This document shows positions 53,406-55,837 of a DNA stretch of 64,000 nt, in pieces. The stretch lies in NCBI RefSeq assembly GCF_002222595.2, contig NZ_CP022413.2, forward strand, positions 1,566,001-1,630,000, written 5' to 3'. Numbering within the stretch: the stretch's first letter is position 1; each line of letters begins with the position of its first letter. The notes under the pieces are model-generated. The model worked only from the letters and a program-made list of their open reading frames with translations. It made no database searches and was not told the DNA's origin. The stretch is from Blautia hansenii DSM 20583 (GTDB taxonomy: Bacteria; Bacillota; Clostridia; Lachnospirales; Lachnospiraceae). Position numbers and translations under genes: made by a program.

Positions 53406-53753
53406 TTATTTTACTAACTCTTTTACTTTCGCTGCTTTACCTACACGCTGTCTTAAGTAGTTCAATTTTGCACGTCTTACTTTACCACGTCTTATAACTT
53501 CTACTCTTTCTACGTTAGGGGAGTGTAATGGCCATGTTTTTTCAACACCAATTCCGTTAGAATTTTTTCTAACTGTGAATGTTTCACGGTTGCTTCCACC
53601 CTGTTTCTTTAATACAACACCTTCGAAAACCTGAATTCTTTCACGATTACCTTCTTTGATTTTACCGTGAACTCTTACAGTATCTCCTACGTTGAATTCC
53701 GGTGCTTCTGCTTTCATCTGAGCAGCTTCAATGTTTTTAATAATTTCGTTCAT
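53406..53753 (-). CDS. rplS: 50S ribosomal protein L19
   Basis: A 115-residue L19 with [22 protein letters not shown] (quoted in part), [33 protein letters not shown] and [14 protein letters not shown]. Standard length. It has its own perfect promoter, separating it transcriptionally from trmD. Confidence 0.98.
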
Positions 53754-53883: not shown

Positions 53884-55320
53884 TTAGAAAAATTCCACCT
53901 CTCTCGGTGTCAGAAATTTTTCTTCTAAATGAGCTTTTACCGCAGATGCGTCATAAGCTCTTGCTCCCTTTTTACACAGTAAAGCGCATCGCATACAGGA
54001 AATACATTTCCTTTCGTCAATTTCCAGCGTATCCTTGGAAATGGCATACACAGGACATTTCTGCACGCATACCTGACAGCCTGTGCAGCGTTCTTTTATA
54101 AAAGCTTTTGGTACAGGCTTCATCTCTTTTTTATCCGGCATGGGATTTCCGGAAACTTGAACAGAAGCAAATCCCTGTTCTTCCCCTTCTTCTATGCGTT
54201 TTTTTATCAGTACCGCAAATTTCTTAAAAATTGCCGCATCCTGCTCATTGGGTCTGCCTGCCCCTAGTTTATCCGAATAAATGTGTGGAATAACCGGTGC
54301 AATAGCTCCAATGCACACAAATCCTCTTTCCTCCAGGATTTTTTTCATCTGGGAGAGGGTATCATCATAATGTCTGTTTCCATAAGCAGCCATGATGACA
54401 CAAGGTGTTTGATTTCCCTTTAAATTTGAAAATAACTTGTCATCCAAGGACGGAAGCTGTCCGCCATAGACAGGCGCTGCTGCAAGGAGTAATTCCTGAC
54501 CGGAAAACTCTCTTTTTTCTCTGCGCAGCTTTCTTCTCGTCAAATCAATATATTGCGGATTTTGCGTCAAACAGCAAGCCAATAGCTCCGCTGCTTTTTT
54601 TGTTCCCCCTGTCGGACTGAAATAAGCGGCTGTCACAGGACGGTTTTTTGCTCTTAAATCAGGACGTCTTTCCTTTGTCCTTTTATAAGACTCTTCCAAA
54701 CGCCACGCCTCAATTTTTGTATGGTCTCCGGTCAGCAATACCGCAGGCACATTTTTTCCTCTCCAGCTTTCCGGTCTGGTATAATGGGGATATTCCAGCA
54801 AATTATCCTGCATGGACTCAAACTGAGAAGACTCCTCATTATTTAAAACGCCTGGAACAAATCGGGAAATTGCATCAATCATAACACAGGCAGCCAGTTC
54901 TCCTCCGGTGAGCACATAGTCTCCGATAGAAACATAATCTGTCACGATTTCCTCTAAAACTCTCTCGTCAATTCCCTCATAATGCCCACAGAGAAAAACC
55001 AGCTCCTCTTCCAAGGCAAACTCCTCTGCCATAGTCTGGTTAAAAACCTTTCCCTGAGGAGTGAGATAAATACATCTGGGCTTTGAAGTCCGTTTTTTTA
55101 CAGACTGATATGCCTGATACACAGGCTCTGCCTGTATGACCATTCCTGCACCGCCCCCGTAAGGGTAATCATCTACACGAGAATGTTTATTGTCTGCAAA
55201 ATCTCTGATATTTACCGTATGGAGGGCTATTTTTCCGTTTTTCACTGCTCTTCCTGTAATACTGGTCTGGACTGTATTTTCCACCATTTCAGGAAACAGC
55301 GTAAGTACATGAAAATCCAT
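53884..55320 (-). CDS. trmD: tRNA (guanine37-N1)-methyltransferase TrmD fused to flavodoxin/2[4Fe-4S] (EFR1-type) module
   Basis: A single 478-residue frame. Residues 1 to about 224 are a complete TrmD: LTLFPEMVENT, YGGGAGMV, FLCGHYEGIDERV, the trefoil-knot SAM site SIGDYVLTGGELA, and YTRPESWRGKNVP. TrmD methylates G37 of tRNAs to prevent frameshifting. From about residue 229 the chain continues as flavodoxin (AAYFSPTGGTKKAAELL, LLLAAAPVYGGQLP, IMAAYGNRHYDD). It ends in two ferredoxin clusters (CTGCQVCVQKCP and CISCMRCALLCKKGA). EFR1-type flavodoxin-ferredoxin proteins normally stand alone. No stop, frameshift or good ribosome-binding site lies at the junction (about 54630-54660). The gene occupies the usual trmD place between rimM and rplS. 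Confidence 0.92.
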   Translation of the reverse strand: MDFHVLTLFPEMVENTVQTSITGRAVKNGKIALHTVNIRDFADNKHSRVDDYPYGGGAGMVIQAEPVYQAYQSVKKRTSKPRCIYLTPQGKVFNQTMAEEFALEEELVFLCGHYEGIDERVLEEIVTDYVSIGDYVLTGGELAACVMIDAISRFVPGVLNNEESSQFESMQDNLLEYPHYTRPESWRGKNVPAVLLTGDHTKIEAWRLEESYKRTKERRPDLRAKNRPVTAAYFSPTGGTKKAAELLACCLTQNPQYIDLTRRKLRREKREFSGQELLLAAAPVYGGQLPSLDDKLFSNLKGNQTPCVIMAAYGNRHYDDTLSQMKKILEERGFVCIGAIAPVIPHIYSDKLGAGRPNEQDAAIFKKFAVLIKKRIEEGEEQGFASVQVSGNPMPDKKEMKPVPKAFIKERCTGCQVCVQKCPVYAISKDTLEIDERKCISCMRCALLCKKGARAYDASAVKAHLEEKFLTPREVEFF

Positions 55321-55330
55321 TTTATCCCTC

Positions 55331-55837
55331 CTAGCACAGGCCCTTCAAAAGATGAACGACCATTTTTCCATTCTCTACATCTACTTCTTTGATGCAGTCT
55401 TTAATCGCTGGAATTAAAACTTCTTTTCCCGCTTCCAGATGAACCACATAAACATCGTTTGCTCCTGTTTCCATAACATCCATCAAAGTCCCAAAATGCT
55501 TTCCGTCTTCCAAATAAACTTCCATACCGATTAAGTCTGCAATATAATACTCATTTTCTTTTAAAGGCACTGCAAACTCTCTTGTTACATACAGGCTTTT
55601 CCCTTTATATGGCTCAATATCATTGATATCATCTACGTCCTTAAATTTCAAAATAACATACTGCTTAAAATATTTTACTCTTTCTATATCAAGCTCACAC
55701 AACTCTTTTCCTGTATCTAAAAGTACACTTTTTAAATAATCAAATCTATGCGCATCATCTGTGGTAGGAAAAACCTTTACTTCTCCTCTGATTCCATGTG
55801 TAGTGGTAATTACACCCACCTGCAATAAATCTTCCAT
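55331..55837 (-). CDS. rimM: 16S rRNA processing protein RimM
   Basis: RimM (168 residues) helps 30S head assembly through S19. The N-terminal domain starts [24 protein letters not shown] and the PRC-barrel C-terminal domain has [16 protein letters not shown] and [20 protein letters not shown] (quoted in part). It is 10 bases upstream of trmD. Confidence 0.96.

Follow-up and report, generated by a model that had tools for sequence, protein, structure and literature searches.

The trmD gene of Blautia hansenii DSM 20583 continues in frame into a complete flavodoxin-ferredoxin module of the EFR1 type, and this fusion is conserved across the genus. It occupies one minus-strand open reading frame (positions 53884 to 55320, ATG start, 478 codons plus stop) in the open reading frame list of the window, i.e., the whole 64,000-nucleotide stretch of DNA analyzed here. 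The encoded protein scored above the NCBIfam cut-offs for both TrmD and EFR1. We propose that an EFR1 protein was fused to TrmD, that its flavodoxin domain gained a role that does not depend on cofactors, most likely contact with tRNA or with TrmD itself, and that electron transfer was kept in Blautia and lost elsewhere. We give this reading an even chance of being correct.

The first part of the window protein is a complete m1G37 tRNA methyltransferase domain. Residues 1 to 222 (54655 to 55320, minus strand) scored 317.3 bits against the TrmD equivalog model NF000648 in the NCBIfam search (cut-off, 220), 211 bits against PF01746, and 252 bits against the TrmD chain 3ky7; the protein also passed TIGR00088 along the whole model (298.6 bits; cut-off, 195). 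Judging from sequence, this half is expected to work normally. Behind it, residues 227 to 478 form the EFR1-type module. NF038196 (EFR1 ferrodoxin) matched residues 232 to 459 at 77.1 bits, just above its cut-off of 75; scores lay just below that cut-off in other fused tails, for example, those of proteins P0059 (63.2) and P0064 (60.8) and of several genomes of the genus. The flavodoxin domain (residues about 227 to 395; 54136 to 54642, minus strand) is predicted to have alternating strands and helices in an AlphaFold model, in which residues 231 to 400 had a pLDDT of 89 to 98 per 10-residue block. As for EFR1 membership, the window protein has the FMN phosphate-binding loop (P-loop) SPTGGT (residues 235 to 240; 54601 to 54618, minus strand) and both [4Fe-4S] motifs. 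The latter lie in a 2[4Fe-4S] ferredoxin domain (residues about 404 to 478; 53887 to 54111, minus strand), where the alignment of fused tails places the first motif, CxxCxxCxxxCP, at Cys 412/415/418/422 (54055 to 54087, minus strand) and the second, CxxCxxCxxxC, at Cys 439/442/445/449 (53974 to 54006, minus strand). Pfam likewise found PF01746 and Fer4 domains on the same chain. The open reading frame list, NCBIfam, and Pfam thus bear out the preliminary description, which had claimed a single 478-codon frame with an intact TrmD, a flavodoxin, and two [4Fe-4S] motifs.

We detected the full fusion in all 20 Blautia genomes searched, including the source genome, at 68 to 100% identity and in a stop-free frame; in one of them, G010, the match ended at residue 468. 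Among 299 Lachnospiraceae genomes, sampled at nearly one per genus (6 of these had no match at threshold in this search), it was present in the source genome and G006, both of the same genus, and in G111, from another genus. The architecture is hence found in close relatives, where the preliminary description had suggested looking for it. In a protein collection, the best 120 of 7,995 matches included 62 clusters with a query coverage of at least 95%, all of them redox complete. Both Cys motifs and YGNR[HD][YF] were present in 62 of these 62 listed clusters and an exact APVY[GA]GQ in 55; the P-loop read SPTxGT in 61 and CPTxGT in one. These results confirm that the joining of TrmD to EFR1 is conserved and that the cofactor motifs are intact. 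For 12 sequence pairs, dN/dS was 0.012 to 0.042 in TrmD, 0.067 to 0.228 in the flavodoxin, and, for the ten pairs that were computable, 0.028 to 0.223 in the ferredoxin; these ratios are rough, since many dS values exceeded 1. The low values for the flavodoxin and ferredoxin indicate that the tail is under purifying selection, looser than that on TrmD.

A second class of TrmD, of about 355 to 400 amino acids, carries a degenerate tail of some 130 to 160 residues from which SPTxGT and the Cys motifs are both missing; in the alignment, the remaining FMN loops are likewise not conserved. These tails, found in eight other Lachnospiraceae genera, consist of a flavodoxin domain that lacks the FMN loops and is not followed by a ferredoxin. 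In three examples (P0074, P0086, and P0116), the TrmD halves passed the NF000648/TIGR00088 cut-off, and NF038196 gave no match at an E value of ≤0.1; the cofactor motifs are gone as well. Homology to EFR1 became visible through profile-profile comparison. A profile of ten degenerate tails (A1) matched a profile of fused tails (A3) with an E value of 4.7e-19 and a score of 120, and a profile of standalone EFR1 proteins (A2) with an E value of 4.5e-15 and a score of 97; both matches spanned some 140 flavodoxin-domain columns. When the 299 family genomes were searched with A1, 21 matched at an E value of ≤0.001. Eight matches were strong (7.9e-50 to 1.4e-26), with the tail in frame with TrmD in all eight, although six of these genomes had supplied rows to A1 and therefore match by construction. 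Of the remaining 13, 3 were the full fusions, and 10 matched weakly in frames of 251 to 327 amino acids that resemble standalone EFR1. Adding the eight degenerate to the three full forms gives a minimum of 11 of 299 genomes, or 10 of 298 genera, in which TrmD has such a tail.

Structure prediction was consistent with a flavodoxin-like tail in this class. In the AlphaFold model of P0074, the tail had a flavodoxin-like order of strands and helices, with a pLDDT of over 90 in 11 of 14 ten-residue blocks; the position of the tail relative to TrmD is uncertain in the models of both P0074 and the window protein (pTM, 0.47 and 0.73, respectively). The best 50 listed Foldseek matches of each model were all TrmD, with no flavodoxin among them, which neither confirms nor excludes the fold. 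A second fold search, spanning model residues 1 to 228, again had only TrmD among the 50 matches listed. The P0074 tail alone, used as a query, reached 5 proteins, and a PDB search with A2 had its best stretch in the Fe-S half among the 60 of 252 matches listed. A match through stops had hinted at a decayed tail behind the plain TrmD of one genome (G056, locus L051); tblastn with the tail and inspection by eye revealed no EFR1-like sequence there. Tails of other kinds also occur in the family. In other genera, two loci encode TrmD with a C-terminal GNAT acetyltransferase (L045:706-1506 and L046:811-1533, both minus strand; Pfam, above cut-off), three more (L095, L096, and L097) have tails that look similar by eye, and the TrmD of L098 has a tail of yet another kind.

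The full and degenerate tails share a basic segment, which in the window protein is TRRKLRREKREF (residues 261 to 272; 54505 to 54540, minus strand). We compared it across aligned tails of three kinds: 62 fused, 98 standalone, and 53 degenerate (the last from 44 proteins and 9 loci). The alignment omitted P0067, P0069, and P0104, along with further atypical or incomplete sequences. The mean net charge of residues 261 to 272 was +5.6 in fused tails (standard deviation [SD], 1.2; range, 1 to 8), +0.7 in standalone EFR1 proteins (SD, 1.4; range, −4 to 4), and +5.7 in degenerate tails (SD, 0.7; range, 4 to 7); the rows behind these values and the residue counts that follow are related, so the counts are not independent. 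The standalone set was retrieved with the window's own tail as the query and hence was not chosen to differ. R262 is present in 100% of fused and 100% of degenerate tails, and K264 in 89% and 98%; the commonest standalone residues at these positions are L (33%) and E (26%), respectively. Residue 373 is K in 90% of fused tails, R in 100% of degenerate tails, and K in 30% of standalone proteins. R266 is unspecific (100% of fused, 83% of degenerate, and 77% of standalone sequences). Degenerate tails also conserve R253-Y254-G255 (98, 98, and 92%), where fused tails have Q-N-P and standalone proteins show no preference. Three redox-complete fusions, P0064 to P0066, fall outside the basic pattern. 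From its charge and conservation, we infer that the segment common to full and degenerate tails contacts tRNA, or the TrmD body beside the tRNA; it could instead bind a protein.

We built a careful tree of TrmD domains from 64 rows (26 degenerate, 17 full, and 21 plain), which we selected from 116 prepared. Tailed TrmDs lay on one side of a branch with values of 92/83, which was not starred. Degenerate rows, together with the full fusion P0059, split from the rest at 100/98, with P0059 inside the degenerate group; plain TrmD joined P0064/P0065 at 99/96. The redox-complete forms sat on deep branches, and this placement makes a redox-complete tail the likely ancestral state. A quick tree, which comprised 106 rows and had an outgroup, instead placed P0064/P0065 among plain TrmDs, and tail presence needed two changes. 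A constraint that makes the degenerate rows one clade was not rejected (p-AU, 0.39), so that one loss and several are indistinguishable; the equivalent constraint for redox-complete rows was borderline (p-AU, 0.06). In a tree of tails (14 of the 62 fused and 33 of the 98 standalone), a group with values of 98/90 united the Blautia type, those of P0056 and P0059, and a single standalone row on a long branch, P0182. P0064/P0065 were placed apart, which suggests that P0064 to P0066 may represent a second fusion event; a single fused clade was not rejected (p-AU, 0.23). P0182 is itself an EFR1-like flavodoxin-ferredoxin; its N-terminal sequence RRDFIK resembles, by eye, a twin-arginine export signal.

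Our preferred reading of these data begins in an ancestor among the Lachnospiraceae, where the 3′ end of trmD would have acquired an EFR1-type flavodoxin-ferredoxin gene in the same reading frame; the fusion is conserved today, and its origin would have been a single event. The flavodoxin half would have acquired a basic face formed by residues 262, 263, 264, 267, and 373. This face would touch tRNA or the adjacent TrmD body and so extend or tune tRNA binding. A review (PMC5372735) describes movement of the C-terminal region of TrmD upon tRNA binding and footprinting that mainly protects the anticodon arm, so that a C-terminal domain could lie near the tRNA. Selection still maintains the FMN and two [4Fe-4S] sites in Blautia and a small number of other lineages, so that the tail of these bacteria should transfer electrons as well, perhaps while positioned at the tRNA. 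Elsewhere, the flavodoxin domain and basic segment would have been retained, whereas the ferredoxin and the cofactor sites would have decayed. A more far-reaching form of this proposal, which we consider unlikely, is that TrmD holds a complete electron-transfer chain on tRNA by means of the basic face, coupling m1G37 synthesis with an electron-requiring tRNA modification (or with redox control of translation fidelity), and that, in sister genera, the same domain became a redox-dead, tRNA-binding part.

The tail might instead be an ordinary carrier that TrmD brings to the tRNA, where it would act as a local electron donor to an Fe-S tRNA-modifying enzyme near the anticodon, for example, one of the radical-SAM type. 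The full set of electron-transfer motifs, together with the basic segment in most redox-complete clusters, fits such a role. However, no partner was found: the partner family searched, TYW1 (PF08608), was matched in 0 of 21 full-fusion genomes, whereas the control search matched 3 archaea among 14 genomes. We consider a local donor unlikely. On the same count, we set aside a wyosine-type G37 pathway, which we regard as poorly supported; the suggestion in the preliminary description of a further G37 modification is weakened to that extent, i.e., for the wyosine type only.

It has also been suggested that the redox module couples m1G37 methylation to cellular redox or iron status. In that case, the FMN/[4Fe-4S] tail would sense redox or iron state and alter TrmD activity, so that the level of m1G37 follows redox. 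The joining of tail and TrmD in one chain in 20 of 20 genomes of the genus, and cofactor motifs that are retained under purifying selection, agree with a switch of this kind in redox-complete lineages, where it is possible. But sensing is not the shared role of the tailed group, because eight genera keep the tail without cofactor motifs, and we know of no sensing role for EFR1 proteins. We judge a redox or iron switch to be quite unlikely.

A carrier captured by an essential, steadily expressed gene could, finally, gain only coexpression and act independently of TrmD, as proposed earlier. trmD occupies a stable operon position, which would suit such a capture. In the window, the fusion lies between a 168-amino-acid open reading frame upstream (55331 to 55837, minus strand), which we take to be rimM-like from operon order, and one of 115 amino acids downstream (53406 to 53753, minus strand), presumably rplS-like, with no EFR1 gene between the latter and the fusion in the open reading frame list or by tblastn. 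The rplS-like frame adjoins the fusion in 16 of 20 loci of the genus and in L038; in L024 to L027, it does not. Around the fusion loci, tblastn detected no second EFR1-like stretch (E value, ≤0.01) in flanking DNA that extended at most about 1.5 kb to either side. The source genome (G000; one contig, 3.07 Mb) yielded a single TrmD, the fused one. One further EFR1 paralogue above the family cut-off, which stands alone, lies far from trmD (C1:941952-942644; L002:1507-2262, plus strand); it is 36% identical to the fused tail and scores 87.4 bits against NF038196.

Among the matches listed, a standalone EFR1 above the cut-off occurs outside trmD in 15 of 20 genomes of the genus and in 7 of 8 degenerate-tail genomes, and its presence therefore does not separate the two groups; at an E value of ≤0.001, NF038196 is unspecific, with matches in 13 of 14 control genomes. 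In the other 5 genomes of the genus (G006, G009, G010, G013, and G015), no EFR1 besides the fused one was detected, which favors a captured carrier. However, eight genera retain a cofactor-less flavodoxin in frame with TrmD, for which mere expression capture is insufficient, and the basic segment marks the fused forms. Simple coexpression is thus poorly supported, and we consider it very unlikely.

An artifact, whether an overlooked stop, a frameshift, or an internal start that yields two proteins, is almost certainly not the explanation, because the frame is open in 20 of 20 genomes of the genus and in G111 and no start codon is conserved at the junction. The window has no stop there, as the preliminary description stated; its further claim that there is no convincing internal start was nearly right, as an in-frame GTG is present at codon 229, with no Shine-Dalgarno-like stretch visible by eye before it. 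This GTG recurs in 11 of 21 scanned loci, the window included, and L024 to L027 and L038 have an in-frame ATG just behind RRPDL. In contrast, L009, the nearest relative, has no start codon between codons 197 and 246, and in L012, L018, and L023, codon 229 is not a start and the only candidate is a TTG, positioned at the end of RRPDL or immediately after it. Separate genes in close relatives, which had been named beforehand as evidence against a fusion, were not found in the genomes searched. The tail forms its own frame in a few metagenome proteins (P0121, P0122, and P0124 to P0128); P0126 closely resembles the tail of L024, where the frame is open in a complete genome, and we therefore suspect broken assemblies.

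Other metagenome proteins are irregular in other ways. In P0063, P0070, P0071, P0123, P0151, and P0154, the fusion frame seems to be interrupted at, or directly beside, the basic segment, so that TrmD has a partial tail. Tail proteins of 169 amino acids are also among the metagenome matches; at least two start with MAAYGNRHY, and two are on contigs sized like those of P0063 and P0070. Possible reasons for the breaks are misassembly, variation between strains, and a mutational hot spot. P0069 is a TrmD of 441 amino acids whose C-terminal half appears, by eye, to be repeated in tandem, possibly through duplication in assembly.

TrmD is an essential enzyme of bacteria and a drug target; S-adenosylmethionine (SAM), Mg2+, and tRNA are usually taken to be all that it requires. 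Its genus-wide fusion to a flavin/Fe-S carrier would connect anaerobic redox metabolism with the maturation of tRNA. In the progression from standalone EFR1 to redox-complete fusion to cofactor-less fusion, an electron carrier was apparently put to a new use, and the stages of this change can be seen. In the open-licence literature, we found no description of TrmD fused to a flavodoxin or ferredoxin in titles or abstract openings, in agreement with the earlier statement that none was known, and no function of the EFR1 family in print, although one paper contains the term "EFR1 family."

TrmD fused to a second SPOUT domain has already been described (PMC1829167 and PMC11187310). TrmD-Tm1570 of Calditerrivibrio nitroreducens, and of Desulfovibrio and relatives, resembles the window protein in that a complete TrmD is naturally extended at its C terminus, and its solved structure, 8b1n, was the best Foldseek match of both models. 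However, its second domain is another SPOUT methyltransferase, whereas that of the window protein is a flavodoxin-ferredoxin; PF09936, the C-terminal SPOUT domain, had no Pfam match in the window protein at an E value of ≤0.001. The EFR1 family (NF038196) has the same flavodoxin plus 2[4Fe-4S] composition as the tail, but the EFR1 proteins that we compared, such as that of L002 in the source genome, stand alone and mostly lack the basic segment. TYW1, of wyosine synthesis, shares with the window protein a flavin domain and a link to m1G37, on which it acts; in contrast to the window protein, in which the partner is a methyltransferase, TYW1 joins its flavodoxin to a radical-SAM domain.
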